Assembly: GCA_024244705.1 (NCBI GenBank)
Contig: JAAEOK010000115.1
Location: 1-63,198 of the forward strand
Source of the DNA: Alphaproteobacteria bacterium
Lineage (GTDB): Bacteria > Pseudomonadota > Alphaproteobacteria > JAAEOK01
Direction of reading: 5' to 3'
Length of the DNA stretch: 63,198 nt
Shown: positions 3,467 to 37,244 of the stretch, in pieces
Layout of the letters: the number at the start of each line of letters is the position of its first letter
Numbering within the stretch: the first letter of the stretch is position 1
The notes under the pieces: model-generated
The model's input: the letters and a program-made list of their open reading frames with translations, nothing else
Database searches by the model: none
Told to the model about the DNA's origin: nothing
Made by a program: the position numbers and the translations under genes

Positions 3467-5767
3467 TCATTCCGGCTTCCGGCACCAGACGTGGTACATG
3501 CCGGCGAAGGCCTTCGGGTTGCGTTCCTCGAAGACGTCCCAGCCGGCGAGATCGGTCTGCGTCGCGTCGTCGGGAAAGTTGGCGCGATAGCGCGACGCGA
3601 CCGTCGGGTCGGCATGCTGCAGGCCGATGAAGTCGAGGCCCAGCCGGTCGAGCATGGCGCCGATCTCGGGCAGCGAGAAGCTGTGTTCCTGGACATGGAA
3701 GACGAGGTCGCGGCAGCCGCTGAGGCTGTAAAAATCCGTCGAATCGAGAAGCCCGCGATAGGCGGCGTAATCGGGATCGAAGATCACCTTTTGGCGGAAG
3801 TCGCGCAGGGCGGTCGCGTCGGCGGGCGCGGTTCCGGTATCGTGGGCGTCGCGGGCGGCGGCGATGTGGTGCCGCGAGCGCCGGCTGTAGAGCGCCACCA
3901 TCATCACGCCGCCGGGCCGTACCAGACCGGCGAGCACGCGCCAGCCGGCTTCGGGATCCTCGAGATGATGCAGCACGCCGGCCGCCTCGACGATGTCGAA
4001 GCGGCGCTCGAGCGCGCCCAGTTCGAGGATATCGGCGACTGCGAACTCGACATTGTCGACGCCGAGATCCTGGGCCCGGCGCGCGGCATAGCCGAGGCTC
4101 GCGCGGCTGAGGTCGACCGCCAGCACGCGGCTGTCGCGATAGACCAACGCCGCCTCGGCGATCGGATGCTGGCCGGTACCGGCGCCGGCGACCAGCACCT
4201 CGACCGGGCCGCGCAGCAAGGCCGGCGGGTCGAAATGGGGGAACAGGTCGCGGAGGATGGCGGCCGGGCTCTCGGGCGATTGGCGGGTCAGCGACGACCA
4301 GCGCGGGTAGGGGTTGGCCTCGTATTGCGCCGCCACCGCCTGCGACGTCGCGTCGTCGATCGGCGTCAGGGCGGGAAGCGCGGCCGCCAGCGCCCCGTCG
4401 CGGGCGCGATCGTGGAACTCCTCGCGGAGCCAGGGCCGGAGCGGCGCCAGCCAGGATTCGTTCGGCACCGCGGCCAGCGCCTCGCGATTGGCGAGCGATG
4501 ACGGCGGCGCATAGAGCCCATACTTGACCAACGCCACCTGGGTCGCGGGCGCCCCCCAATCCGCGGCCGCTTCCAGTTTGCGGCGCCAGGCGCCGACCCG
4601 CTCCGCCTCGCCGTCGTCGAAAGCGAAGGCATATTCATTGGCCGCGCATTGCCGCGCGATGGCCGCGGCGAGTCGCAAATCCGGCCCGTCGGCGGCGAAA
4701 TCCCATGCCGCGAGACGCCGCCGAAGAGCGGTCAGGAACACTTCCAACGCCGGGTCGGCATTGACTGCCGCCGCCAGGTACGCGGCGAGCAAACGGTCGC
4801 CCATCAGGCGCTCCAACAGGGCGTCGTCAATGTCGATGTCGCGCATCTCCGCCGGGGTCGCCGGCAGGCCGTATTTGAGCCGCAGGTGGCGGGCGGTCAA
4901 CGGGCCGACGGCGGCCAACCCGATATCGGGCCAGCCGTAGGCGGTGGTCAGCAGCCGGTCGATGGCCGGTTGGTAGCGCTGGAGGTCACCCCGGGACAGG
5001 GTCGTGACCAAGCCGAGACGCGCCGCCGAATCGTCGGGGACGAGCGCCAGCGCCCGGGAGAACAGGTCTTGGGCGGTCTGCAGCTCGCCGATCTCGGCCA
5101 GCGCCTCGCCGAGGTTGATCAGCAACGGGGCGTCGTCCGGCGCCAAATCGACGGCGCGATGAAAGACCTCGAGCGCGGCCGAGAACTTGCCCTGGCGGCT
5201 CAGCAGATTGCCCAGGTTGTTGAGCGCATCGACCGATTCCGGCATCAGCTCGAGGGCGCGGCGGTAGTGGCGCTCGGCGTCCGCGGCGAGACCCTGTCGG
5301 GCCAGCGCGATACCCAGATTGTTGTGGATATTCGGGTCCTCGGGGGCGAAGTCGAGCGCCTTGCGGAAGGCGTTCGCCGCCTCGGCCAGCCGGCTGCGGG
5401 CCTCGAACACGTTGCCGAGCGTGGTCCAGGCGGGAGCGAAATCGGGACGGTGCTCGAGCGCCAGCCGGGCCTGAGCCTCCGCGCCGTCATAGTCTTTCTG
5501 CTGACCCCTGACGGTCGCCAGCCGGTTGATGATACCGACATTGGCGGGCTCGACCTGCAAGGCTTGGGTGTAGATATCCGCCGCCCCGTCGAGGTCGCCG
5601 CGATGTTCGTGCAGCAGGCCCATATATTGCAGCGCCCGCGCGTGCCGTGGCGCGGCCTCCAGTACCTGCCGATAGAGATCCTCCGCCCGGGCGAGGTCGC
5701 CCTCCTGGTGCGCCCGCAGGGCGGACGCCAGCACGGCGTCGGCGGGCGCGGCGTCGGACAGGCTCAT
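3467..5767 (-). CDS. TPR-repeat protein with C-terminal SAM-dependent methyltransferase domain
   Basis: A 766-residue cytoplasmic protein. Residues about 10-300 are tandem tetratricopeptide repeats (A..Y..AL...P....A...LG pattern). Around residue 522 there is a class I methyltransferase motif [11 protein letters not shown], followed by an acidic residue ending strand 2 (VLAVDLS) and a motif III region ([11 protein letters not shown]), so the enzyme should transfer a methyl group from S-adenosylmethionine. The substrate is unknown; the TPR part suggests a protein or a carrier-bound partner. I start it at ATG 5767, whose ATGA overlaps the TGA of msrB, so translation is probably coupled. The longer frame upstream lies inside msrB and is rejected. 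Similar TPR-methyltransferases occur near surface glycan or sulfotransferase genes; three TPR-sulfotransferases lie 16 kb away here. Confidence 0.85.
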
Positions 5768-6183
5768 GTGTCGTCGCTGTCGAGATCGAGCGCGACCGAG
5801 TTCATGCAATAGCGCAAGCCCGTCGGCTGCGGGCCGTCCGGAAAGACATGGCCGAGATGGGCGTCGCAATGGGAGCACAAAACCTCGGTCCGGCGCATGA
5901 ACAAGGCTCGATCCTCTTCCTCGCGCACTGCCTGGTCATGAATCGCTTCGTAGAAGCTCGGCCACCCGGTGCCGGAGTCGAACTTGGTGTCGGCATGGAA
6001 CAATGGGTTGCCGCAGCAAACGCAGACATAAATGCCGGGTTCCTTGGAATCATGGTGCTTGCCGGTGAACGGACGCTCGGTGCCCCTGCGCCGGCAGACA
6101 TGGTACTGCTCGGGCGACAGCTGCGCCCGCCATTCGGAATCGGACTTTTCGGTTTTATCGGACTTTTCCATCTTGTCGGACAT
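5764..6183 (-). CDS. msrB: Peptide-methionine (R)-S-oxide reductase MsrB
   Basis: Reduces the R isomer of methionine sulfoxide in proteins, using thioredoxin. The 139-residue product has the zinc ligands Cys54-x-x-Cys57 and Cys103-x-x-Cys106, the family signature GTGWPSF near residues 71-77, and the catalytic RYCMNS with Cys126. I start at ATG 6183, which has GGAAGGAAAG upstream; the frame is open to 6312 but lacks a site there. No signal peptide is present, so it acts in the cytoplasm. A lysine- and aspartate-rich extension of about 15 residues precedes the core domain. Its TGA overlaps the start of the TPR-methyltransferase. Confidence 0.96.
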
Positions 6184-21473: not shown

Positions 21474-23720
21474 CTAGTCGGTTGCCGCGAACTCGCCGAG
21501 GGTCTCGATCATCGGGCCGATTTGCTTTTCGTAGCGCTTCCAGCCCTTGACCGAGGACGCATAGATCGGCTGCCGTGCCTGCCAAATGCTGGCGGTGCGG
21601 ATCGGCCGGTCCGATTTCTGCGGCTCGAGGCAGCGGTCGTCCCAATCGAGTCCGGTATGCGCGATCATGCGGCGGCTGACGGTCTCCGGATCGGCGATCA
21701 GATCCTCGTATTGCACGTCGAGGATTTCAAGCGGCCGCACTGCCTGCCAATGGTCCATGTAGCGGCGATAGGCGCGATAGAAATTGGCGATGTTGCGCTG
21801 ATCCCACATATAGACCTGGGTCTCCTGGAAGAATTGCAGGAAACACGACAGACAGGTGTCGATCGGGTCGCGCTGGACGTGAATGACCTTGGCGTTGGGG
21901 AACAGCAGGGCGATCAGCCCGATGCGCGCGAAATTATCCGGCATCTTGTCGACAATCCGTGCGGCGTTGGGGTCGATTTCGTCGAGGCGGCCGAGATAGG
22001 TGCGGGCCTGTTTGTGGGCGTTGGCGATGTCGAGTTGCGGAACGCATTTCGGATAATCTTGCGCGGTTCCGAGATCGAGGTTCATGAAGAGCTCGATCTG
22101 CCGCATTTGCTCGAGTTCGCCGGCGCCGGTGATATCCGGGTGACGGTCGAGGATGCGCTCGACCAGGGTCGTGCCCGAACGGGGCATGCCGACGACGAAG
22201 ACCGGCCGTTCGTCCCCTTCGCCATGGGCCCACCGGTCCTCGAAAAAACCTTCGGCGAAAATCTCGGCGACACCGGCTAGCCGCTCCTCGATCTGGGACG
22301 CGTCCTGGCCGACTTTTTCGTGCATCAGGGCGTTGCCGGCGGCGAAGTCGCGGAAGGCGTCGTCATCATGGCCCTGGTTGCTCGCGGCGCGGCCCAGGGC
22401 AAAGTACGCGGCGGCCCGATTGCTCGGCTCGATAGCGGAATCTGCGGCCAGCGCGGTAAGTGCATCGACTTCGGGTTCGGAGAGCCGAACGTTCTTGTCC
22501 GCGGTGAGGCTCAGATAGGGGTCGGTCTTGTCCGGGTGCAACTCGATCGAGTGGCGGAACACCTCGGCCGCCTCCTCGAACCGTCCCGTCATCTGCAGGG
22601 CGATACCTTTCAGATTCGGCAAATTGGGGTCGCCATGCTTTTCGGCCTCCAAGGAATCGAATATCTCGAGCGCTTCTTCCGGTCGCTGAATGTCGAGGAG
22701 CGACGCGCCGATATCCAGGCGGATGTCCGCGCGGTTGGGCTCGAGCGCGAGCGCCGCGCGGTAGGAATCGGTCGCCAGTCTTTTCATCCCGGCTTTGTTC
22801 AACGCGCTCGCCAGCCGCAATTGAATGTCCGATCGGTTGGGCGCCAGCGCCAATCCCAGTCGGTAGGAGACAATCGCCGCCTTGTAAATACCAGCCGCGG
22901 CGAAGGCGTCGCCGGCCGATAGGCGCAAATCGGGGTCTTCCGGCGACAGCGCGAGCGCCTGGTCCATATGCGCCAAACCTTCCAGGCGATCACCCTCTTG
23001 CAGCAACAGATTCGCCAAATTGTAGCGGGCGGCCGCGTCTTTGGGATCGATCTCGACGGCCTGCCGATAGAGCGCGAGCGCCTCCTCCTTCTGATCCGTT
23101 TCGACCAAGGCGTTGCCGAGATTGATGAAACCCTCGACGAAACGGGGATTGACGCGGACCGCGAAACGGAGCAGCTCGATCCCCTTCTCGATATCGCGAT
23201 CGGGGTCGCCCTCGGGAAGGCGAATCAGTGCGGTACCCAGTTTGGCCTTGGCCTCGGCGAAATCGGACTTGATTCGCAACGCGTCGTTAAAGGCCTCCAT
23301 GGCCTCGCGAATCTTGCCCTGTGCCATCAACGCGGTGCCCATGTTGCAGGGTGCGCCAGGCGCGTCGGGTTCGAGGGCGCGAGCGCGCCGGTAATGGTTG
23401 ATCGCCTCGTCGTAGCGGCCGAGGGTGCGATAGGCCTCGCCGATATTGTTGTGAAAGTCGGAGATATCTCCCTGCAGGGCGATGGCTTGGCTGATCAGTT
23501 GGATCGCCGGTTCCGGATGACCGGTCTGGTAGGCGATGAGGCCGAGGAGGTGGAGCGCGTGCGGCTGTTCAGGGTCCTGCTGCAGGATACGGCGATAGCC
23601 GAGTTCGGCGTCCTCCAGCTTGCCGTCCTCATGCGCCTCGAAGGCCGCCTTGAACATCTTGTCCAGGTCGGCGTCCGACAATATCTGTTGCTTCCAGAAC
23701 TGGTTTTGCGGCGTCGCCAT
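21474..23720 (-). CDS. TPR-repeat sulfotransferase (third of three)
   Basis: A 748-residue protein. The first 390 or so residues are about ten tetratricopeptide repeats. The C-terminal part is a PAPS-dependent sulfotransferase: 5'-phosphosulfate loop FVVGMPRSGTTLVERIL near residue 510, GAGELEQM, DKMPDNFARIGLIALLFP and the 3'-phosphate motif HVQRDPIDTCLSCF near 616. Members transfer sulfate to a hydroxyl of a protein, glycan or small molecule; the acceptor is unknown. ATG 23720 follows TTGGAGCGTGGCC, and a GTG at 23726 is the alternative. It is separated from the second sulfotransferase by 230 bases with a candidate promoter and a tandem repeat, so it can be transcribed on its own. Confidence 0.92.
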   Translation of the reverse strand: MATPQNQFWKQQILSDADLDKMFKAAFEAHEDGKLEDAELGYRRILQQDPEQPHALHLLGLIAYQTGHPEPAIQLISQAIALQGDISDFHNNIGEAYRTLGRYDEAINHYRRARALEPDAPGAPCNMGTALMAQGKIREAMEAFNDALRIKSDFAEAKAKLGTALIRLPEGDPDRDIEKGIELLRFAVRVNPRFVEGFINLGNALVETDQKEEALALYRQAVEIDPKDAAARYNLANLLLQEGDRLEGLAHMDQALALSPEDPDLRLSAGDAFAAAGIYKAAIVSYRLGLALAPNRSDIQLRLASALNKAGMKRLATDSYRAALALEPNRADIRLDIGASLLDIQRPEEALEIFDSLEAEKHGDPNLPNLKGIALQMTGRFEEAAEVFRHSIELHPDKTDPYLSLTADKNVRLSEPEVDALTALAADSAIEPSNRAAAYFALGRAASNQGHDDDAFRDFAAGNALMHEKVGQDASQIEERLAGVAEIFAEGFFEDRWAHGEGDERPVFVVGMPRSGTTLVERILDRHPDITGAGELEQMRQIELFMNLDLGTAQDYPKCVPQLDIANAHKQARTYLGRLDEIDPNAARIVDKMPDNFARIGLIALLFPNAKVIHVQRDPIDTCLSCFLQFFQETQVYMWDQRNIANFYRAYRRYMDHWQAVRPLEILDVQYEDLIADPETVSRRMIAHTGLDWDDRCLEPQKSDRPIRTASIWQARQPIYASSVKGWKRYEKQIGPMIETLGEFAATD

Positions 23721-23850
23721 GGCCACGCTCCAATCTTCGATTTGTTGGCGCGATCAGGTATACGGTGATCGCCGGGCCGATGTCGACAAAGGAGACGTTC
23801 GTCGCGCGGACATTACATCACATCGCGATTCGGCCACGGCGAAGCCCGAT

Positions 23851-23880
23851 GGCATATCAGGGATCGGCTCGACCTTTCAA
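23851..23880 (-). promoter_or_regulatory. Candidate promoter for the third sulfotransferase gene
   Basis: On the reverse strand TTGAAA (complement of 23875-23880) is followed after 18 bases by TATGCC (complement of 23851-23856), a moderate match to a sigma-70 promoter. It lies 131 bases before the ATG at 23720. The 24-bp tandem repeat begins inside its -35 hexamer and extends upstream, where a regulator would bind. Only the hexamers and spacing support this call. Confidence 0.35.
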
Positions 23881-23925
23881 GGGCGAAACCCTGGTTCCGG
23901 TCAAGGGCGAAACCCTGGTTCCGGT
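23878..23925. repeat. Perfect 24-bp tandem direct repeat, two copies
   Basis: The 24-bp unit CAAGGGCGAAACCCTGGTTC plus CGGT occurs at 23878-23901 and again, base for base, at 23902-23925. Read on the reverse strand it sits immediately upstream of, and overlaps, the -35 element of the candidate promoter of the third sulfotransferase gene. It could be a recent slippage duplication or a pair of operator sites at about two helical turns. Confidence 0.9.
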
Positions 23926-23950
23926 CGACCTTATGGTGTCCGCGATGCGA

Positions 23951-25663
23951 TCACCGGTCGATGAGATCGCCGAACGCCGTTCTAAGCGGATCGATATGGG
24001 CAGTGTAATGCCGCCAGCGCCCGACCGAGCGCGCATAGATCGGCTGCCGCGCCTGCCAGAAGCTGGCGGTCCGTATCTCGCGTTCCTGTTTGTAATAGTC
24101 GAGGCATCGCGGATCCCAGTCGAGGCCGCAGAATTCGATGAGGCGCCGGCTTACCCCCTCCTGATCGGCGATCAGGTCTTCGTAGACCAGATCGTGGATC
24201 GGCACCGGCAAGACCTCGCGCCAATGGGCCATCAGGTCATGGTAGGCGCGATAATAGACGCCGAGCGCGGCGAGATCGTAGGCGTAGGCGTGCTCGCGCT
24301 TGAACAGCTGGAAATAACACGACAACGCATTGTCCAGCGGATGGCGGCGGCAATGGACGATTCGCGCGTGCGGGAAAAGCAGCGCGATGAGGCCGAGCCA
24401 GCGGAAATTGTCCGGCATCTTGTCGGTCACGCGCTTGGCGCCATCGAGGTCGCCGAGGTGATCGAGATAGGCGCCGGCGAGCTCAGCCACATCCTTCGAG
24501 CCGAGGCCGGCGACACCCTCGGGATAGGCGGCATCGGTCTTGGCGAGCTCCGGTAGACGATCGGCGATATGGCTGACGATGCTGAGTTCGCCGGCGCCGC
24601 GCACGTCGGCGTGACTGGCGATGATTTGCTCGACCAGGGTGGTCCCGGACCGCGGCATGCCAACGATGAAGACCGGCACTGTGCTGGGGTCACCCAGGGC
24701 GCGACGCTGGGCGAAGAAATCGGCGGTGAAAACCACGCGGCTTCGAGCCACTAGATCCTCGATTTCCGCGAGGTCGTAAGGTGTTTCGCTGTATTTCAAT
24801 TGGTTCCCGCTTTCGAAATGGGTAAACGCCCGGTCGAAATCGTCGCGATCGTCATAAGCCTTGCCGAGGGCGAAATGAATGGCGATGCGGTCCTTGGGTG
24901 AAAGTTCGGTGTGGTCGAGCAGCCGCTGAAGGCTGAGGGCGAATGGATCGTCGGCGCCGATTCGGCCCATCGACAGCAAGTAATGCAGGGCTTCGACCGT
25001 ATCCGGTGCGATCTCCAGCGCGCGTCGAAAGCATGCCTCGGCGGCATCGAAGTCGCCCTGTACCTGCCGGCACTCGCCGAGGCCGATCTGCGCCGCGGCC
25101 AGTCCGCCGTCGAGGTCGATTGCGCGGACAAAGGCCACCGCCGCGTCTTGGGATTTGCCGATTTCCAATAGCGCGCGGCCGAGATTGACATGGGCGGCGG
25201 CAAAATTGGGGTCGGCCGCAATCGCTTGCCGAAAGGTGTCGATGGCGTCGGCCACCCGTTCGCTATCGAACAGGGCGTTGCCGAGGTTGTTGTGGATCAC
25301 CGCATTGTCGGGCGTCAGCGCCGCCGCCTTCCGGTAGGCTTCGATGGCCTCGTCGAGGCGATCGGTATCGACCAGGATGTTGCCCAGATTGAAATGGAAG
25401 CCGGCGAATTCGGGCCGGATTTCGATTGCCCGCCGGATGGCGGCGATTGCTTCCTCCGCGTCGCCCTGTTCGAAGCGCAGCAAGCCGAGGAAATGCAAGG
25501 CGTCGGGATGGTCCGGCACCGCCGCCAAGACATCCCGGCAGAGATTTTCCGCCTCCCCATGCCGCCCCGATTGGTGCAACGCGACCGCATCCTGGAGGCG
25601 CGTGCGTGCGTCCTCCTGATCCCGCTCCGAGAAAGCCGGCCGCGGCTCTTGTGGCTGTGTCAC
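23951..25663 (-). CDS. TPR-repeat sulfotransferase (second of three)
   Basis: A 570-residue protein, the shortest of the three. About six tetratricopeptide repeats (residues 15-245) lead to a sulfotransferase domain with VFIVGMPRSGTTLVEQII near residue 333, GAGELSIV, DKMPDNFRWLGLIALLFP and HCRRHPLDNALSCYFQ near 440. It starts with GTG at 25663, whose GTGA overlaps the TGA of the upstream paralogue, so the two are translationally coupled. The C-terminal segment RTASFWQARQPIYARSVGRW is nearly the same in all three copies, which shows they are paralogues from repeated duplication. Substrate unknown; cytoplasmic. Confidence 0.92.
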   Translation of the reverse strand: MTQPQEPRPAFSERDQEDARTRLQDAVALHQSGRHGEAENLCRDVLAAVPDHPDALHFLGLLRFEQGDAEEAIAAIRRAIEIRPEFAGFHFNLGNILVDTDRLDEAIEAYRKAAALTPDNAVIHNNLGNALFDSERVADAIDTFRQAIAADPNFAAAHVNLGRALLEIGKSQDAAVAFVRAIDLDGGLAAAQIGLGECRQVQGDFDAAEACFRRALEIAPDTVEALHYLLSMGRIGADDPFALSLQRLLDHTELSPKDRIAIHFALGKAYDDRDDFDRAFTHFESGNQLKYSETPYDLAEIEDLVARSRVVFTADFFAQRRALGDPSTVPVFIVGMPRSGTTLVEQIIASHADVRGAGELSIVSHIADRLPELAKTDAAYPEGVAGLGSKDVAELAGAYLDHLGDLDGAKRVTDKMPDNFRWLGLIALLFPHARIVHCRRHPLDNALSCYFQLFKREHAYAYDLAALGVYYRAYHDLMAHWREVLPVPIHDLVYEDLIADQEGVSRRLIEFCGLDWDPRCLDYYKQEREIRTASFWQARQPIYARSVGRWRHYTAHIDPLRTAFGDLIDR

Positions 25664-27816
25664 GCCACGCTGCCGGTGGGTGTCGCGGCCGGGCGATCGG
25701 GCGTGCCGCCATCGTCGAGCGCGTGCCGCAACTGTGCCAGATGCTTTTCATAGTTGCGCCAGCGCCCGATCGACGAACGATAGACCGGTTGACGGACCTG
25801 CCACAGGCTGGCCGTCTTGACCGGCCGTCCGCCGCTGTGGAAATCGAGGCAGGCATCGTCCCAGGGCAATCCGACAAACTCGATCAGCCGCCGCGACTGG
25901 GCTTCCGGATCGGCAACCAAATCCTCGTACTGCAGGTCGAGGACCGGAAGCGGCAGCACTTTGCGCCAATGAGCCATGACGCGCTCATAGTGCCGATAGT
26001 AGGTGGCGATCTTTTCAAGATCGTAGGAGAACCGGACGCCGACACCGAAATTGTGTAGGTAGCAGCTGAGCGCCGTGTCCATCGGGTCGCGGCGGCAGTG
26101 GACGACCCGCGCCCGAGGCAGCATCAGGGCGATCAAACCGAGATGGGTGAAATTGTTCGGCATCTTGTCGACGACGCGCCGCTTGCCCGGAGCCGCGCTG
26201 CCAAGGACGTCGAGGTAACGCGCGCCGGCGGAAGCCAACGTTTCACCGTCGAGATCGGCGACGGAAAGCGGATAGGGCTTGGCGCCTTCGAACCCGCCGG
26301 CGATTTCGCCGATTGTCGAAAGCTCGCCGGCGCCGGCCGCGTCGGCATGGGCGGCCACGATTTGTTCGACCAGGGTGGTGCCGGAACGGGGCATGCCGAC
26401 GACGAAGACCGGCAACTCGCTGTCGATACCGGAACTCGGGGCGGCATCGAATAGCGCCGAAGTGAAGACGTCGCAGGTGGCATCGATGAAGCGCCCGAAA
26501 AGCGCGATATCGAACGGAACGTCCCGGTCTCGTATGGCATTGCCGGCGCGGAAGTGCGCGAACGCGGCATCGTAGTCTCCTGCGCCATCATGAATGTGGC
26601 CGAGGGCGAAATGCAGTTCCGCGCGGTCGTCGCGCCGCAAGTCTTCCTCGCCGACGAGGGCTTGCATACGTTCGCGCACCTCGTCCGATACCGGCCTGCC
26701 CCGGTCCGCCGCCAGCGCGCTATAGGGTCCGGTTTGCCGGGGGTCGATCTCGATGGCGCGGCCGAGGTAGGGCACCGCCGCCGCGAACTCCCCCGACCGC
26801 TGCAGCATGACGCCCATTTGACAATGTGCCTCGGCGTTGTCCGGCTCGCGGCGGAGCGCCTCCTCGAGGTGCGCCTTGGCTTCCGGCAGGCGGTCGCACT
26901 CGCGCAGCGCGGCGCCGAGGCGAACCCGGGCGATGATCGATTCCGGATCCAGGCGGTGCGCATCCTCGAATCGCCGGCGCGCTTCGTCGAAATGGCCGAG
27001 GCGGAGACCGACCTCGCCGAGATCGAGCAGCAGCGGCATCACCGCAGGCCGTTGTGCATGGGCGGCCGCGAGGAATTGCTTGGCCTCTTCGAACTTGCCA
27101 CTTCGCAATGCCGCACGGCCGCGGCCCAACAGCGCCTCGAACAGATCGGGATGTCGGGCCAGGATGGCGTCGTAGGCCTCGATCGCAATCGGATGGGCGC
27201 CGGATCCGAGATGGTGTGCCGCCAGCGCGACCTGGGCGGCGAGGAAATCCGGTTGCAGCGTCAGGGCGGTCTCGATGTGGTGCAGCGCGGCCTCGCCTTG
27301 ATCCATTTCGGACAACAAATCGGCCAGGTTCAGGTGTGCTTCCGCGTCGCGCGGGGCCAGGGCGACGGCCTGCCGGAAGGACTCGATAGCGTCATCGCGA
27401 CGGCCGAGCTCGGCCAGCGCGTTGCCGCGGCTGAACAAGCTGTCTGGCAGATTGGCGTCGCGGGTCAAGGCGCGGTCGAAGGACGCGACCGCGGCCGCCG
27501 GGTTGCCGTCGGCGGCTTCGATTTCGCCCATGATGTGATGGAGGAAGGGATTGCCGTTGTCGACGTCCAGCGCCACGGACAAGTGGCCGCGAGCCTCGGC
27601 GGATCGTCCCCGCTGATGAGCCAGGATGGCGCAATTCATCAGCGCGTCGACATTGCGCGGTGCGGCCGAAAGGGCGCGCCGCAACACCGTTTCGGCATCA
27701 TCGAGTCGGCCCGACTGCAAGTGGTGTTGCGCCTGGATCAGCATCGACGACACCGAGTCGGGGGCTGCGGGCCCGCTTTCCCCGTTTCGATCCGGCGTTT
27801 TGCGGCGATTCGCCAT
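25660..27816 (-). CDS. TPR-repeat sulfotransferase (first of three)
   Basis: A 718-residue protein and the promoter-proximal member. It has roughly nine tetratricopeptide repeats from about residue 22 to 370, then a sulfotransferase domain with VFVVGMPRSGTTLVEQIV near residue 472, GAGELSTI, DKMPNNFTHLGLIALMLP and HCRRDPMDTALSCYLH near 573. Note PNNF where the two sister proteins have PDNF, a substitution next to the PAPS site. ATG 27816 follows AGAGGAAATGC. It is divergent from the porin gene, with 253 bases between the starts. As with its sisters, the sulfate acceptor is unknown; the TPR part probably holds it. Confidence 0.92.
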   Translation of the reverse strand: MANRRKTPDRNGESGPAAPDSVSSMLIQAQHHLQSGRLDDAETVLRRALSAAPRNVDALMNCAILAHQRGRSAEARGHLSVALDVDNGNPFLHHIMGEIEAADGNPAAAVASFDRALTRDANLPDSLFSRGNALAELGRRDDAIESFRQAVALAPRDAEAHLNLADLLSEMDQGEAALHHIETALTLQPDFLAAQVALAAHHLGSGAHPIAIEAYDAILARHPDLFEALLGRGRAALRSGKFEEAKQFLAAAHAQRPAVMPLLLDLGEVGLRLGHFDEARRRFEDAHRLDPESIIARVRLGAALRECDRLPEAKAHLEEALRREPDNAEAHCQMGVMLQRSGEFAAAVPYLGRAIEIDPRQTGPYSALAADRGRPVSDEVRERMQALVGEEDLRRDDRAELHFALGHIHDGAGDYDAAFAHFRAGNAIRDRDVPFDIALFGRFIDATCDVFTSALFDAAPSSGIDSELPVFVVGMPRSGTTLVEQIVAAHADAAGAGELSTIGEIAGGFEGAKPYPLSVADLDGETLASAGARYLDVLGSAAPGKRRVVDKMPNNFTHLGLIALMLPRARVVHCRRDPMDTALSCYLHNFGVGVRFSYDLEKIATYYRHYERVMAHWRKVLPLPVLDLQYEDLVADPEAQSRRLIEFVGLPWDDACLDFHSGGRPVKTASLWQVRQPVYRSSIGRWRNYEKHLAQLRHALDDGGTPDRPAATPTGSVA

Positions 27817-28069
27817 GCATTTCCTCTAAGTCGCTGTTATGCGTAGAATTTCAGGCCACATCCTGCCAACATTTCGCCGCCCTGCCAACACCGTACCGGC
27901 GGCGGCCGCCCGCGACTGTTGCACAAATGTCACGAAAGAAAAAAGATTACGGATACAATGAACTACGGTGCTTGACCGTACTCACCCCATGAAGCAAAAG
28001 AGATCGTCTCGGTCTGCCTCCCGGAACCGGGATGAGTTTTATAACCTGAGCGTTTGGAGAGGAGGTTCC

Positions 28070-29524
28070 ATGTCTAACGCGCGTTTTAGGACCGCACTGC
28101 TAGGGTCTGGCGCAGCTGTCGCATTGATGGCCGCATCGGTTCCGGCATCGGCCGACGAAATAGACGAACTGCGGGGCCAGATCGAGGCCATGCAGTCGAA
28201 GCTCGTGACCTTGGAGGAAAGCCAGGAAGCGGCGAAACAAGAGCAGCAGTACGTTGCCGCGCCCGCGAATGCGGTCGTCGGCGGCGACAAGCCCGGCTCG
28301 TTCCGTCTTCCCGGTTCGAACACCTCGGTCGCGATCGGCGGTTACGCCAAACTCGACTTGATCTACGACATCAACAACTACCAGGGCAATTCGTTCAGCT
28401 TTGGTGGCATTCCGTTGAATGCGCCGCCGAACAGCGCCCGGACGGAAGCGGACGGCAATTTCCGTTTGCACGCCCGTCAGTCGAGGTTGTGGGTCAAGAC
28501 GTGGACTCCCACCGATTGGGGCGAGTTCGCAACCCATATCGAAGGCGACTTCGAGGGTGCCGGCGGGAACGAGGTGTTCTCGAACTCTTCGAGCTTCCGT
28601 CTGCGTCATGCCTATGGTCAATTGGGGAATGTCCTGGCCGGTCAGACCTGGACGAACTTCAGCACGCCGTTCGAGTGGCCGGGCACCATCGACTTCTTCG
28701 GCACCATCGGCACCAGCTTCGTGCGTCAGGCCCAGTTGCGCTACACCGCGCCGCTCGGCAACGGCATGAGCTTGGCGGTCGCCATCGAGAACCCGGAGAA
28801 CGACGGCCTGCTGTGTAACGCCGGCCTCGGCGGGTGTACGGCAGCAGTCCGCACCGGTACCGCGGGGACCAACGCCACCGCGACGGCCGCCGGTGTTTCC
28901 GGCAGCCGTTCGACGGATGCAGCACCCGATCTCACGGCCCGCTTCCAGTGGGGCGCGAATTGGGGCACGGTCGCCGTTGCGGCGGTCGGTCGCTACTTCC
29001 GCGTCCTCGAAGGCAGCGCGATCGCTGCAATGACGCCCACGTCGACCTCCTATTCGGGTGCCGACGACACCGCGTTCGGTTGGGGTGCCAACGTCGCCGC
29101 CGTGTTCAATCTGCCTTGGGGCAATGACAGCGTCGGCGTCCAGGGCATCTACGGTGACGGTCTTGGCCGTTACGGCATCTGGGGCGGCCCGGCTTATATC
29201 GCTAGCAACGCCGGTCCCAATGCCGCCGCGCCCAATATCCAGACAGTCGAGACCTGGGGCGCCAATGCTTGGATCGAGCATTGGTGGACCAGCAGCTTGT
29301 TCTCGGTTCTGGCAGGCGGTTATGCCAGCTTCAACTACCCGACCGGGTTTGCTCAAGGCTTCACCGACCACATCGTCTCGGGTCACGTGAACTTGCAGTG
29401 GAAACCGGTTAGCCGGGCGACGATTGGCATCGAAGGGTCCTACGGTCATCGCGAGACGACCGCGGGTCTCCAGGGTGATGCCACCCGCGTCCAGGTCGGC
29501 TTCCAGTGGGGCTTCTCGACCTAA
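28070..29524 (+). CDS. Outer-membrane porin (DcaP-like) with N-terminal coiled-coil
   Basis: A 484-residue outer-membrane protein. Strong site GAGAGGAGG before ATG 28070; the frame upstream to 27968 is rejected. Residues 1-29 are a signal peptide ending ASADE, followed by a short coiled-coil (about 30-60, IDELRGQIEAMQSKLVTLEE) and then a beta-barrel: alternating hydrophobic strands, an HARQSRLWVKTWTPTDWGE segment and a C-terminus ending in an aromatic strand (QVGFQWGFST). That layout, trimer-forming coil then barrel, fits the DcaP group of trimeric porins. It should let small solutes cross the outer membrane. A clean terminator follows. Confidence 0.88.
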   Translation: MSNARFRTALLGSGAAVALMAASVPASADEIDELRGQIEAMQSKLVTLEESQEAAKQEQQYVAAPANAVVGGDKPGSFRLPGSNTSVAIGGYAKLDLIYDINNYQGNSFSFGGIPLNAPPNSARTEADGNFRLHARQSRLWVKTWTPTDWGEFATHIEGDFEGAGGNEVFSNSSSFRLRHAYGQLGNVLAGQTWTNFSTPFEWPGTIDFFGTIGTSFVRQAQLRYTAPLGNGMSLAVAIENPENDGLLCNAGLGGCTAAVRTGTAGTNATATAAGVSGSRSTDAAPDLTARFQWGANWGTVAVAAVGRYFRVLEGSAIAAMTPTSTSYSGADDTAFGWGANVAAVFNLPWGNDSVGVQGIYGDGLGRYGIWGGPAYIASNAGPNAAAPNIQTVETWGANAWIEHWWTSSLFSVLAGGYASFNYPTGFAQGFTDHIVSGHVNLQWKPVSRATIGIEGSYGHRETTAGLQGDATRVQVGFQWGFST

Positions 29525-30507: not shown

Positions 30508-32601
30508 CTATGCCCCTTCGCGCCGCCACGCCAGCATCAGCCCGCCGATGGCGAGGATCAACACGAGGATCCCCGGCAGCAGGGACGTCAGGGTCAAACC
30601 GGTGACGATGAAATCGCCGTTGCGGCGCAACCCGATCCATGACCGGCCGGTTATCGCGGCCTGACCGACATAGTCCTGGCCGCCGCGCACCTGGCGCAAT
30701 TCCGGCAGGCCGCTCTCGGCCAGCCACAGCACCCCGCCGCCGCTCTGCTCCGCCAGCGGGCGCAGAATCTCGTCGCTGGCGCGCACGTCCTTGTGCTCGG
30801 TCATTTCGATATCGCCGGCGGCGGCGATGGCCGTCAGTTCACCGTCGCTGAGGCGGTAGATGCCCGCCTGATCGACCTCGAGCGTGCCGAGTTGCAGGCC
30901 GCCGTCCGGGGTCTCCGCGAGGTCCACGATCTCGGTATCGCCATTCGGCAACGTCACCGTGACCGGTCGGTCGGTGGGAACCAGTCGAAGGCGTGCGATT
31001 TCGAGGGTGCCGCCGCGGAGCGTCGCGGTCAGCCGGTTCTCCTCGAGTTCGGGCTCGCCCATCAGCCAATGTGCCAGCCGCCGCACCAGTTCGGCTTGCG
31101 GCCCGCCGCCGTCATAGCCGCGCGCCCATAACCAGATATGGTCGCTCAGCAACAGCGCCAGGCGCCCTTCTTCGACGCGGTCGAGGATCAGCAACGGCTT
31201 GTCGTCGGGGCCGGTCATGAGCGTGCTGCCGCCGATCTGATCGGCATCGACATAGCGGTACCAATGCCCCCACGGGTCCTGTTCCGCCGGCACCAGGCCC
31301 GCCGTGACCGGATGCCGTCGGCCGGTTTCGGTGATCGCCGGCCGGTACGGATCGGTGCGCACCGACCCCGAAGCCAACGCCGGCAGGATATCGCCGAGCG
31401 GGGTATTGCCGAGGCTGAGCGGGCCGGCGAAAGTCGGCCCGACCGCGGCCAGCAAGGCGCCGCCGTTGCGGACATATTCGACGATATTGTCGACATAGCG
31501 TTGCGGCATCACGCCGCGCCGCCGGTAGCGGTCGAAGATCACCAGGTCGAACTCTTCGAGCTTGATCTCGAACAGCTCGCGAACCGGAAAGCTGATCAGC
31601 GATAGTTCGCGGACCGGCGTGCCGTCCTGCTTTTCGGGCGGCCGGAGGATGGTGAAATGTACCAGGTCGACCGCCGGGTCCGCCTTTAGAAGGTTGCGCC
31701 AGGCGCGCTCGCCGGCGTGTGGCTCGCCCGATACAAGCAGCACCCGCAGCCGGTCGCGGACGCCATTGACGACGATCCCGGCGCGGTTGTTAGCGAGCGT
31801 CAACTCGGCCGGACCCGGTTCGACCTCGACCTCGATCACCGAAGGCCCGGCGCGCTCGAGGGTGAAATCGACGTCGACGCTTTGCCCCACCGGCACCACG
31901 AAGGAGCCGCCCGGTTCGCCGTCCTGCGAAACGTCGAGTCTGACCATGCCGGCGTCGGCGCCGTTGAGATCGTCGATTCGGACCCGCAACGCCAGCTTGC
32001 GGTCGATCAGCCCGTAGCTCGGCGCCTGCTCGACGATGATCTGGCGATCGCTCTCGCCGCGTACGCCGGTCAACAGGACATGGACCGGTCCGGGGATGCG
32101 ATCCCAGGCGTCATCGGGTGGCATATCGTGAATTTGGCCGTCGGTGATCAGGACCACGGCCGCGGCCCGTGCCTTCGGAATTTCCGCCAGCCCGCTTCGC
32201 ATCGCCTCGAACAGCCGGGTGCCGACGTCGGTTGCCGATACGCCGGCGAGGTTGGGCTTGGTATGGACGACGTGGAGGTCGATATCGGTAAGACCGGCCA
32301 CCGAATCGCGGACATGGCGCAACGCGTCGTCGCGCTGGCGTTGGCGATCGCCGATGTCCTGGCTTGGCGACTGATCGGCAACCACCAAGAGAGCGTCGGG
32401 CTGCAGGTCGCGCTGCTCGACGGTCAGCGTCGGATCGGCCAATGCCGCCCACAGCACCGCGGCGGCGAGGGCCCAAGCGGTGGCGCCGCGCGCGCGCCGG
32501 AACAGCGCGAAACCGACCAGAACCAGCGCCGCCACGCCAAGCCCGGCCAAAACCGGCCATGGGATCATCGGCGTGAATACGATGTCGGCGCCGCCGATCA
32601 C
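30508..32601 (-). CDS. Membrane protein with VWA-like and GATase1-like domains, last gene of the MoxR operon
   Basis: A 697-residue inner-membrane protein. Two helices near residues 14-31 and 41-55, then a region like a von Willebrand A domain (DALLVVADQSPSQDIGDR, AAVVLITDGQIHDM), a beta-sandwich, a glutamine-amidotransferase-like region (LISFPVRELFE.., DLVIFDRYRR, YVRNGGALLAAVGPTF) and a final helix near 670-690. Such proteins close the MoxR-DUF58-DUF4159 operon in many alphaproteobacteria. The GATase-like part lacks an obvious catalytic Cys, so it is probably a binding domain. GTG start at 32601 overlaps the TGA of the DUF4159 gene. Role is thought to be envelope assembly with the MoxR ATPase. 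Confidence 0.8.
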   Translation of the reverse strand: MIGGADIVFTPMIPWPVLAGLGVAALVLVGFALFRRARGATAWALAAAVLWAALADPTLTVEQRDLQPDALLVVADQSPSQDIGDRQRQRDDALRHVRDSVAGLTDIDLHVVHTKPNLAGVSATDVGTRLFEAMRSGLAEIPKARAAAVVLITDGQIHDMPPDDAWDRIPGPVHVLLTGVRGESDRQIIVEQAPSYGLIDRKLALRVRIDDLNGADAGMVRLDVSQDGEPGGSFVVPVGQSVDVDFTLERAGPSVIEVEVEPGPAELTLANNRAGIVVNGVRDRLRVLLVSGEPHAGERAWRNLLKADPAVDLVHFTILRPPEKQDGTPVRELSLISFPVRELFEIKLEEFDLVIFDRYRRRGVMPQRYVDNIVEYVRNGGALLAAVGPTFAGPLSLGNTPLGDILPALASGSVRTDPYRPAITETGRRHPVTAGLVPAEQDPWGHWYRYVDADQIGGSTLMTGPDDKPLLILDRVEEGRLALLLSDHIWLWARGYDGGGPQAELVRRLAHWLMGEPELEENRLTATLRGGTLEIARLRLVPTDRPVTVTLPNGDTEIVDLAETPDGGLQLGTLEVDQAGIYRLSDGELTAIAAAGDIEMTEHKDVRASDEILRPLAEQSGGGVLWLAESGLPELRQVRGGQDYVGQAAITGRSWIGLRRNGDFIVTGLTLTSLLPGILVLILAIGGLMLAWRREGA

Positions 32602-35324
32602 AATCCCAGCCTTTCCATGATCGCCGGGACGTGAACTTGATCCGCTTTGTAGTTACCGGTTAAGGCGTACATCACCAGATTGACGCCGAAGCGAAAGGCG
32701 ATTTCGCGCTGGCGCTCGCCGTCCGGGACGACGGCGAAACGCGGCCGGCCGGTTTCGTCTATGGCCCATGCGCTGGCCCAGTCGTGGCCGCCGACGATGA
32801 CCGACGAAACGCCGTCGTTGACTTTGGGCTCTTCCTCGACCCACAGCGTCCCCCCGCGCCAACGGCCGGGAAACTCCGACAGCAGGTAGAACGCGCGGGT
32901 GAGGACGTGCTCTTCCGGCACCGGGACCAGGGGTGGGATATCGAGGCCGCGCACCAGTTGCCGCAATTGTCGCGTCACGCTGCGGTCGTTGCGTCCGCCA
33001 GGTGCCCGGTCGCGGGTGTCGAACAGGATCATGCCGCCATTACGGATATAGGTGTTGAGGCCGGCTACCGCTTCGTCGGAGGGCGTCTTCTGCCCGCCGA
33101 CAATCGGCCAATACAACATCGGGTAGACCGACAGGTCGTCGGTCTCGATATCGACCGCGATCGGCTCCTCGGGCTCGACCGAGGTGCGGCGGCTCAGGAT
33201 CGCGTTCAACCCGCGCAAGCCGTCGCGGCTGATGTCATCGACCTGCGGTATGCCGGTCAGCACATAGCCGAGGTGGATGCCGAGGCTGGCCCGCTTGGCG
33301 GTGTTCGCGGGCGAAAACGGGTCATCGAAATCCTGCGCCGATGCCGGCGGCGGAACCAGCATGAGGAGGCCGGCCAAACCCGCCGCAACGGCAGCCCCGC
33401 GCCGCGCTACCAGTCCGCGGAGGGCGAGGCTGATACAGAGATCGATGAGCAGCAGGACCAACGCCGCGGTGAGCAGCCAGGGCCGGGTGTCGGCTTCGCT
33501 GGTTTCGCCGTAGCTGTCGTGGACCGCGCCCGGCGGCGGCGATGAAAGCAACTGGAAATCATCGATGCCCGGCGACAGATTGAGCGCCCGGCGCAATCCC
33601 TCGCCGCCATAGAAGCCGGGCGGCGTCGCCGCGGTGGCCGCCGCCTCGGGCCAGTCGGCGCCGGCGATCGGCCTCGCGGTACCCGGCGCCGAACCGAGCC
33701 TGCCGAACCCGTCGAGGGTTTCAATCGGCGACATCGTGGTTGTTGGCTCGCGATCGGTCATGCCGTCGCTGAGCTCGGTCAAGCGACGCAGCATGTCGAC
33801 GAACAGTCCCGACAACGCCAGGTTGGACCAATCGGAGTTGGCCGTCGTGTGGACCAGCACCAGCCATCCCTCGCCACGCCGGTCGGCGGTGATCAAGGGG
33901 GTGCCGTCGGTCAGCCGCACCCAGGTCTTGTCGATCAGATCGACCGAGGGCTCGGCCAGTATCTGGCGATGGACCTCGACATCGTCGGGAATGGCGAGAT
34001 TCGAGAATGGACCGAATTCGTCGAACGGCGCCAATGTTGCCGGTTTCTCCCATGACATGGCGCCGCCGAGCGAGCGGTCGCCGCGGCGCAATCGTACCGG
34101 CACCAACTCGTCCGATCCTTCGCTCAGACGCGGGCCGGAAAAGCGGACCAAGACACCGCCACGGGCGATCCAGGATTCGAGCGCATCGACTTCCGGCGAG
34201 GTCAGGGTGCCGACATCGGCCAGCGCGAGAACCGCCAGTTCGTCTTCGATGAGGTCACCGATTTGTCCGCGCCGGATATCGCTGAAGGGTTCGAGGGCGC
34301 GTTCGAGGTAGTAGAGGTCGCTGAGCAAGGGCTGAGCCTGCTCGAGCGCGCGGCCCGAGACCAGGCCAACGGGCCGCCGCCGCCATCTATCGTCGAGCAG
34401 AACGACGGCGCCGGCGCTCGGCGCGTTTTCGACCGTCAGGCGGGTGATCCGATTTCGCCTCTCGGCGGGCAACGGAAGATCGATCTCGGCACTCACTGCA
34501 TCGGTCGCGAAGTGGCCTTGGTGGCGGGTCACCACGTCCCCGTTTTCATCGCTGGCGCGGATCCAGAACGGGCGTTCGGCGCTGGCCGCGGGACGCCGAA
34601 CCAATGCGGTCAATCGGGCGCCGGTCATGGTCGGTGGCCGCAGCAGGAGAGGTTGATTCCGCGCCGGATCGGTGACCATCCGCAGGCTTCCCAACCGCTG
34701 CAATTGAACGGCCAACTCTTCACTCGCCGGAGACGCGAGGCCATCGGCAAGCCACACCACATTGACCGCGCCCTCGATTTCCGCGTCCGCGATGGCCGAC
34801 AGGGCGGCGCGCCGATCGACGGGCCACGGCGACGGCGCCAATGCATGCGCCCGCTCCACGGCTTCCACCGGCGGCATTGGGCGCAACGCGGGGATCTCGT
34901 CGCCGGTGGCCGAAGGCGCGGTGGGAACCAAAATGACGCTGCGCGCTTCGCGCTCGGCGCGGGCGATCAGGTCGTCCATCATTTCCAGCCGGGCACCCCA
35001 ATGGGGCGCCGCCGCCCAGCCGTTATCGACCACCAGCATGAGCGGTCCGCTGCCGGTGAAGCCGCGATCGGGATTTATCACCGGTCGTGCCAAGGCGATC
35101 ACCACAAGGGCGACCAGAAACATGCGCAGCAGGAGCAGCCAAAGCGGCGTTCGCGCCGGGGTCTCTTCGGTCTCGCGAAGTCCGAACAGGAAGCGAACGG
35201 CGGGGAAGGCAATTCGACGCGGCGCGGGCGGCGTCGTTCGCAGCAGCCACCAGATCACCGGCAGCACCAGCAGCGCGGTCAAATAGAGCGGGGCGGCAAA
35301 GCCGATGGCGCCGAGTTCCAGCAC
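32598..35324 (-). CDS. DUF4159 protein with BatA-like N-terminus
   Basis: A 908-residue inner-membrane protein. The N-terminus (about residues 1-85) is a BatA-like aerotolerance region: two helices with APLYLTALLVLPVIWWLLR and PAVRFLFGLRETEETPARTP. A vWA-like region (LMLVVDNGWAAAPHW) follows, then a long beta-rich part and, near residues 615-650, two more helices (WLLTAALVLLLIDLCISLAL and a second short one ending VPPPASAQ). The last 215 residues are the DUF4159 domain with GIHLGYVLTGIPQVD and MLYWPIVGGQ. GTG 35324 follows the DUF58 stop closely. Together with the other three genes it forms the standard MoxR membrane module. Molecular role is not settled. Confidence 0.88.
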   Translation of the reverse strand: MLELGAIGFAAPLYLTALLVLPVIWWLLRTTPPAPRRIAFPAVRFLFGLRETEETPARTPLWLLLLRMFLVALVVIALARPVINPDRGFTGSGPLMLVVDNGWAAAPHWGARLEMMDDLIARAEREARSVILVPTAPSATGDEIPALRPMPPVEAVERAHALAPSPWPVDRRAALSAIADAEIEGAVNVVWLADGLASPASEELAVQLQRLGSLRMVTDPARNQPLLLRPPTMTGARLTALVRRPAASAERPFWIRASDENGDVVTRHQGHFATDAVSAEIDLPLPAERRNRITRLTVENAPSAGAVVLLDDRWRRRPVGLVSGRALEQAQPLLSDLYYLERALEPFSDIRRGQIGDLIEDELAVLALADVGTLTSPEVDALESWIARGGVLVRFSGPRLSEGSDELVPVRLRRGDRSLGGAMSWEKPATLAPFDEFGPFSNLAIPDDVEVHRQILAEPSVDLIDKTWVRLTDGTPLITADRRGEGWLVLVHTTANSDWSNLALSGLFVDMLRRLTELSDGMTDREPTTTMSPIETLDGFGRLGSAPGTARPIAGADWPEAAATAATPPGFYGGEGLRRALNLSPGIDDFQLLSSPPPGAVHDSYGETSEADTRPWLLTAALVLLLIDLCISLALRGLVARRGAAVAAGLAGLLMLVPPPASAQDFDDPFSPANTAKRASLGIHLGYVLTGIPQVDDISRDGLRGLNAILSRRTSVEPEEPIAVDIETDDLSVYPMLYWPIVGGQKTPSDEAVAGLNTYIRNGGMILFDTRDRAPGGRNDRSVTRQLRQLVRGLDIPPLVPVPEEHVLTRAFYLLSEFPGRWRGGTLWVEEEPKVNDGVSSVIVGGHDWASAWAIDETGRPRFAVVPDGERQREIAFRFGVNLVMYALTGNYKADQVHVPAIMERLGL

Positions 35325-35329
35325 GGTGC

Positions 35330-36211
35330 CTACCCGCCGGGTCGCACGGACAGGGCCGCATAGAGCGTCAGCAATGCGGCCTCCGGGCTGTGGTCGGTGA
35401 AATGGCGCGACAGTGTCCAGCCCATGGACTGAACGATTCGCGTCAAACCGTTGACGTGTTGCTCGAGCGCGCCACGGTAGTCCTGGCGCAGGGCCTGGCT
35501 GCGGCGGATGAGAATGTCGCCTTCTTCCTCGAATCCCTCGAACCGAATGCGGCCGGAAAACGGGAAGTCGCGCTCCGCCGGATCGAGAACCTGGACAACG
35601 TGCCCGTTGACGCCGGTTTCACCGAATTGGCGCAGCGTGTCTTCTATTTTCGGTAACGGGGTCAGGAAATCGCCGATAAGGACGATCTGGCCGTACCGCG
35701 GCAAGGGACGAAACGGCGGCAGGCTCGGCGTCGCCGACGGCGGGCGGGAGAGCAGCGCGGCGAGGCGATGGAGCGCGATCGTTCCGGTCGTCGGCGCCAT
35801 GGTGCTGTCGACCAGGGCGATCCGCTCGCCGCCGCGAATCAGCAGCGCCGCCAGTGCCAGTGCAAGCAACGCCGCGCGCTCCGCCTTGGTTGACGATATA
35901 TCGCGCGAGCCGAAATCCATCGACCGCGATCGATCGGCCCACAACCACACCGTTTGAGCGGCCTCCCATTCGGTTTCGCGAATATAGACGGGATCGGATT
36001 TTCCGGATTGGCGCCAGTCGATGCGTTGCGCCGAATCGCCGAATTCGTAGCGCCGAAACTGCCAAAAGGTCTCGCCCTGGCCGACGCGGCGGCGGCCATG
36101 GACCCCTTGCGCCACGGTGGTGGCGACACGCTCCGCCGCGACCAATAGGGGCGGTAACGTCGCCGCCAGCTGTTCGGCGCGGTGTTGCAGGCCTGATGCG
36201 GTCGCGGTCAT
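35330..36211 (-). CDS. DUF58 domain-containing protein
   Basis: A 293-residue protein of the DUF58 family, related to VWA proteins and functionally linked to MoxR ATPases. Family motifs: GRRRVGQGETFWQFRRY, GDSAQRIDWRQSGKSDPVYIRETE and VWLWADRSRSM, with a MIDAS-like DRSxSM in the last. No transmembrane helix is visible, unlike many DUF58 members. It starts at ATG 36211, 19 bases after the moxR stop, and its own stop lies 5 bases before the DUF4159 start. It is thought to be a partner that MoxR remodels in the assembly of an envelope complex. Confidence 0.9.
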   Translation of the reverse strand: MTATASGLQHRAEQLAATLPPLLVAAERVATTVAQGVHGRRRVGQGETFWQFRRYEFGDSAQRIDWRQSGKSDPVYIRETEWEAAQTVWLWADRSRSMDFGSRDISSTKAERAALLALALAALLIRGGERIALVDSTMAPTTGTIALHRLAALLSRPPSATPSLPPFRPLPRYGQIVLIGDFLTPLPKIEDTLRQFGETGVNGHVVQVLDPAERDFPFSGRIRFEGFEEEGDILIRRSQALRQDYRGALEQHVNGLTRIVQSMGWTLSRHFTDHSPEAALLTLYAALSVRPGG

Positions 36212-36230
36212 GGCGGAACGGGGTTGACGT

Positions 36231-37244
<1,014 letters not shown>

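Follow-up and report, generated by a model that had tools for sequence, protein, structure and literature searches.

The window analysed here comprises 63,198 nucleotides (positions 1 to 63,198) of the alphaproteobacterial contig JAAEOK010000115.1. It contains three genes in a row on the reverse strand, each coding for a TPR array joined to a sulfotransferase domain, and next to them on the forward strand a gene for an outer-membrane porin. The order of transcription is P3, P2, P1, and the features are as follows.

25660-27816, reverse strand: TPR-sulfotransferase P3, 718 aa, ATG start, first in the operon, Sulfotransfer_3 at 25855-26412
23951-25663, reverse strand: TPR-sulfotransferase P2, 570 aa, GTG start, Sulfotransfer_3 at 24110-24676
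23727-23950, reverse strand: P2/P1 gap, 224 bp, possible leader of P1
21474-23726, reverse strand: TPR-sulfotransferase P1, 750 aa, GTG start, Sulfotransfer_3 at 21636-22205
27817-28069, between divergent starts: P3/porin intergenic region, 253 bp
28070-29524, forward strand: DcaP/Porin_2-type outer-membrane porin with a signal peptide, the proposed main acceptor

The initial annotation described three tandem genes on one strand, with TPR arrays of different length and a sulfotransferase with intact phosphate motifs, and the open reading frames, Pfam matches and alignment all agree with this description. Pfam finds multiple TPR matches in each protein. The Sulfotransfer_3 domain (PF13469) is complete in all three (positions 1-216 of 216), with scores of 164–169 bits against a cut-off of 27 and E-values of 2.8e-49, 2.1e-48 and 6.9e-48. 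In the alignment of the trio, the 5'-PSB motif VGMPRSGTTLVE and the motifs GAGEL, DKMP(D/N)NF and RxPxDxxLSC are intact throughout, and the catalytic domains are 49–60% identical to that of P2. The C-terminal motif RTASxWQxRQPIY, which had been described as common to the set, is present in P1 and P2, whereas P3 has KTASLWQVRQPVY. The four-base overlap previously reported for the first two genes is that of P3 and P2, at 25660-25663. The gap between P2 and P1 contains a perfect tandem repeat (2 x 24 bp) at 23877-23924. Judged by eye, the N-termini of P1, P2 and P3 bear no resemblance to signal peptides.

The immediate neighbour of P3 is an outer-membrane β-barrel gene, which was not mentioned in the initial annotation. 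The start of the porin, at 28070, was picked on the basis of a GGAGG ribosome site and alignment to relatives. On the opposite flank of the trio are a glutathione-S-transferase-like (GST) gene and a LigB-type dioxygenase gene; the genes scanned around the trio comprise these, the porin, a dehydrogenase, a BatA-like gene and others. A Pfam scan of this neighbourhood detected no glycan or acceptor-biosynthesis genes near the trio, and no adjoining catabolic operon. It therefore supports the earlier observation that no acceptor-biosynthesis gene adjoins the trio, and a glycan gene cluster was dropped as a candidate for the same reason. No acceptor was seen at the locus in the initial annotation; the likeliest one is the divergent porin next door. 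Further along the window (30508-37244, reverse strand) are BatA/DUF4159, DUF58 and MoxR-type genes, including a 697-aa gene that adjoins the porin in four other genomes too. Elsewhere in the window (3467-6183, reverse strand) a TPR-methyltransferase gene (766–803 aa) and an MsrB (SelR) gene have 4 bp in common. The former codes for another TPR-fused modifying enzyme, and a TPR-methyltransferase gene also adjoins a TPR-sulfotransferase in locus L061.

The genome collection contains no close relatives of the window's genome, and none of its order. Among more distant members of the class, belonging to other families, the porin is again divergent from the TPR-sulfotransferase or sulfotransferases, and the flanks again carry the BatA-like/697-aa and GST/LigB genes. 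A porin followed by one to three TPR-sulfotransferases is found in at least five further genomes, from three other families, and a DcaP-like porin is linked to TPR-sulfotransferases in genomes G000, G016, G059, G102, G218 and G382. The number of copies at the locus is three in the window; three in G016, spread across two contigs; three plus another TPR gene in G059; two, flanked by two porins, in G218; one plus a TPR-only gene in G102; and one in G382. In G308 there is a tandem trio, with the porin on a separate fragment. Locus L065 of Mesorhizobium ciceri WSM1271, a culturable relative, likewise has a TPR-sulfotransferase adjoining a Porin_2 gene. A gene for a lipoprotein with a Trypsin_2 domain directly follows the last TPR-sulfotransferase in five syntenic genomes including G016 (L145:5722-6501, L257:8380-9144, L258:10292-11005, L043:12995-13744 and L255:3410-4168), and is absent from the window locus and from G059. 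When carriers of the porin were defined by a match at E<1e-40 (10/385 genomes), TPR-sulfotransferases of the window type were found in 8 of the 10, compared to 68 of the remaining 375 (p=5e-5). Since the shared synteny extends more widely, to the BatA-like, GST and LigB genes, the nearness of porin and sulfotransferase could be passive within this lineage.

A maximum likelihood tree was calculated for 36 catalytic domains with the repeats removed. The three genes had been thought to be each other's closest relatives, which is not supported as stated: P1, P2 and P3 do not group. P1 groups with sequence from other taxa, pairing with that of an unclassified bacterium (support 91/82), and by path length P2 and P3 are closest to copies from G016. 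The constraint of P1–P3 as a single clade is nevertheless not rejected (AU p=0.0885). The trio of G016 does group together (94/78) while P1–P3 do not, which implies that copy number at the locus has changed within lineages.

The trio share their domain architecture with a large family that is named TPR-sulfotransferase in the annotation of public genomes. At least 572 relatives were found, distributed over the alpha-, beta- and gammaproteobacteria, the desulfobacteria and the planctomycetes. We found no functional study of it in the open-access literature. The initial annotation would have been refuted by a common and already characterised locus; the family is indeed common, and its function is described in none of the open-access papers searched. 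The trio belong to this named, uncharacterised family as typical representatives, and there is nothing special about the trio itself. Some members are unusual. G112:C6:30591-33095 (L154) is a single open frame of 1338 codons with two sulfotransferase domains, an enzyme fusion. The Blastopirellula loci L098:11090-20761 and L100 have a gene of about 3,180 codons after the TPR-sulfotransferase. It may encode a giant surface protein, which would be a further acceptor candidate. A sequence related to the catalytic domain (42% identity) occurs in a single viral contig, L259 (IMGVR_UViG_3300043391_001575); a phage origin was dropped, as this was the only relative among viral contigs.

The relationship to barrel genes was surveyed using a class-wide sample of TPR-sulfotransferases, for which the regions were fetched before the neighbours were inspected. 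Genes were called by our own script and scored for a C-terminal β-barrel (BAM) signature, both of these being simple procedures. The signature is found in 14/108 immediate neighbours and in 12/436 genes farther away (p=8e-5); with a signal peptide required as well, the counts are 11/108 and 3/436 (p=2.6e-6). A hold-out of loci from genomes unused in the first sample replicates the enrichment, with the BAM signature in 12/70 immediate neighbours against 5/251 farther genes (p=1.2e-5), and 13/70 against 3/251 (p=3e-7) using HMMs trained on the first set. The survey thus shows a strong enrichment of outer-membrane barrel genes directly beside TPR-sulfotransferases. A barrel gene is next door at about 40% of hold-out loci, and most of the TPR-sulfotransferase loci sampled, about 60–70%, have no adjacent barrel gene. 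The Pfam families of the neighbours include Plug/TonB barrel, Autotransporter, DcaP, Porin_2, Porin_4, OMP_b-brl and OmpA_membrane; no barrel families occur among the 25 commonest Pfam families listed for the distance-5 control. Sulfotransferases that lack TPRs have glycosyltransferases, epimerases and methyltransferases among the 25 commonest families listed for their neighbours. These Pfam tallies mix the class sample with hand-picked loci, so that the unbiased figures are those of the 14/108 signature sample and the hold-out. A direct comparison of TPR-bearing with short, TPR-less sulfotransferases for barrel-signature immediate neighbours (14/108 against 4/58) is not significant (p=0.18).

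The type of barrel was mapped onto a tree of 196 catalytic domains, using HMM barrel classes that were seeded from adjacent genes and are clean only when applied to the hold-out. In this tree, a well-supported clade of 15 has an adjacent TonB receptor in every case, positioned upstream in 6, downstream in 6, divergently in 2 and convergently in 1. In a second group, 8 of 9 members have an autotransporter as neighbour. The kind of barrel follows the branching of the tree, with 10 changes compared to a mean of 18.75 after shuffling (0/500 shuffles as low). When all TonB receptors in five genomes were counted, 9 of 14 TPR-sulfotransferases had such a receptor within 4 kb, the expected number being 0.73 (p about 4e-9). 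The linkage inside clades is due in part to simple inheritance. The fact that adjacency is kept through four different arrangements of the genes argues for a functional tie.

The structure of the catalytic domain provides further information. A profile of the three domains, searched against the PDB, finds the tyrosylprotein sulfotransferases TPST1/TPST2 as top matches (best E 1.2e-13, all TPSTs <1e-9). An AlphaFold2 model of P2 (mean pLDDT 93.4) agrees: residues 324–570 superimpose on TPST1 with Z 22.0 and an rmsd of 2.6 Å over 235 residues, the next-best sulfotransferase being an olefin synthase domain (Z 18.2). An Arg, a Glu/His base and a Ser have been identified as the three residues essential for sulfotransferases (PMC6637879). 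Across 27 homologues, R338 (the 5'-PSB Arg), E359 and S448 (the 3' Ser) do not vary, and their equivalents are invariant in P1–P3 too; E359, which is located between the motifs, aligns with a Glu of TPST. For the TPR part of the P2 model, the best natural match is human OGT (Z 20.4), and Asn occupies position 6 of the repeat in 36% of cases, against a background of 3.6%.

The window's own genome (4.5 Mb in 127 contigs) has Sulfotransfer_3 matches at 12 places, including two further long genes (626–659 codons) on another contig. PAPS can be made as well, since a 649-codon CysNC-like frame contains a strong APS-kinase domain. In another genome, the compact run L061:1-9583 contains a Porin_4 end, a TPR-sulfotransferase, a TPR-methyltransferase, a Sulfotransfer_1 enzyme, and CysD-like and CysNC-like genes, and so unites a barrel protein, two sulfotransferases and a supply of PAPS.

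We consider it somewhat probable that the trio are protein sulfotransferases of the cytosol whose targets are outer-membrane β-barrel proteins, modified before export and most likely on tyrosine, with the porin as the first candidate. The domains, motifs, fold similarity, porin synteny, family-wide barrel linkage and PAPS-making gene are direct observations; the cytosolic location, protein acceptor, choice of tyrosine, pre-export order and division of labour among the copies are what we infer. PAPS is cytosolic, and in combination with N-termini that do not resemble signal peptides this points to sulfation before export. In such a mechanism, the N-terminal OGT-like TPR superhelix would grip the unfolded preprotein, and the C-terminal TPST-like domain would transfer the sulfate group of PAPS to one of its side chains, with tyrosine as the likeliest acceptor, before Sec export and assembly by BAM. 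In the window, the foremost candidate acceptor would be the porin, whose divergent gene starts 253 bp from P3, and the differing TPR arrays of the three copies may serve separate sites or separate barrel proteins. We put forward more tentatively, as a reading slightly less likely than not, a widespread and so far undescribed system in which TPR-guided TPST-like enzymes would act in the cytosol and sulfate tyrosines of porins, TonB receptors and autotransporters ahead of their export. Each subfamily would then be matched to one class of barrel.

It is the likeness to the TPSTs alone that suggests tyrosine as the acceptor residue. An alignment of 4 linked and 10 unlinked DcaP-like porins found no tyrosine restricted to the linked copies, the conserved tyrosines being common to linked and unlinked paralogues. 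Tyrosines with acidic flanks are not enriched in linked TonB receptors relative to 14 controls with crudely chosen frames. The tyrosine content of the linked receptors is higher than that of the same unlinked controls (5.9% against 4.2%, p=0.006), a comparison that we set aside because the control set is small (14) and its frames were crudely chosen.

The initial annotation proposed envelope proteins or glycans as targets. A role in the envelope still fits, and the evidence favours β-barrel proteins over glycans. Glycans are the targets of many bacterial sulfotransferases, and TPR-less Sulfotransfer_3 genes of the same class sit amid glycosyltransferase and epimerase genes, so the acceptor of the trio might instead be a glycan or lipid of the envelope (LPS, capsule or exopolysaccharide), with the TPR part serving only to dock the enzymes to other proteins or to the membrane. 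However, no glycan gene adjoins the trio, TPR-bearing members adjoin barrel genes instead, and the nearest structures are protein sulfotransferases, which together make such a target unlikely. Sulfation of a small molecule or carbohydrate imported by the neighbouring porin or TonB receptor would account for the importing role of these barrels and for the PAPS-synthesis genes that accompany one such locus (L061). It appears very improbable, given that the partners also include autotransporters, which have no import function, that TPR solenoids have proteins as their ligands, and that no catabolic operon adjoins the trio.

A different objection accepts protein sulfation and places the targets elsewhere in the genome, the porin being passive synteny and the array a lineage-specific expansion for dosage or variety. 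The majority of TPR-sulfotransferase loci without an adjacent barrel gene, the variation from one to three copies at one locus and the recurrence of tandem arrays are all as expected on this explanation. Against it, the adjacency to barrels survives four gene arrangements and is replicated in the hold-out, and we regard it as unlikely. Sulfation of the neighbouring barrel protein is thus the reading that we prefer. The tie to barrels and the likeness to TPSTs turn a sulfotransferase without an acceptor into a specific and testable claim, which predicts an addition of 79.957 Da on named proteins that can be looked for by mass spectrometry. If it is true, sulfated surface proteins would be common across Proteobacteria and Planctomycetes, which would matter for the selectivity of porins, for the receptors of phages and toxins, for metal uptake and for host recognition.

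It is worth comparing this proposal with known systems. The trio resemble animal TPST1/TPST2 in catalytic fold, PAPS motifs and the aligned catalytic Arg and Glu, and the TPSTs act on proteins; unlike the bacterial, TPR-fused trio, the TPSTs are located in the Golgi and have no TPR array, and identity is only 16–20%. OGT and SPINDLY (GT41) likewise have a TPR superhelix preceding a transferase domain that modifies segments of proteins, whereas the C-terminal domain of the trio is Sulfotransfer_3, and Glyco_transf_41 is absent among the Pfam matches listed. The genes for the heptosyltransferases TibC and AAH adjoin an autotransporter gene, and the enzymes act in the cytosol. They differ from the trio in adding a sugar rather than sulfate and in having no TPR array. 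They are described as enzymes that modify an autotransporter (PMC4358343). The closest bacterial parallel in chemistry is RaxST of Xanthomonas (raxX-raxSTAB), a PAPS-dependent tyrosylprotein sulfotransferase that modifies a precursor before secretion and whose substrate gene is adjacent (PMC6637879). The likeness is that of a bacterial PAPS-dependent sulfotransferase beside its substrate gene, the candidate substrate of the trio being the porin; no TPR array is described for RaxST, which acts on a peptide of 60 residues that is secreted through a type I system. A RaxST-type peptide locus was rejected for the window, there being no raxX-, raxA- or raxB-like genes among those scanned beside the trio. 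Open-access papers yielded no characterised bacterial protein tyrosine sulfation other than that of RaxX by RaxST. Precedents for the modification of export-bound proteins exist in RaxST (PMC6637879) and the autotransporter heptosyltransferases (PMC4358343); what is new here is the combination of a family-wide tie to outer-membrane barrel proteins with a TPST-like catalytic domain.
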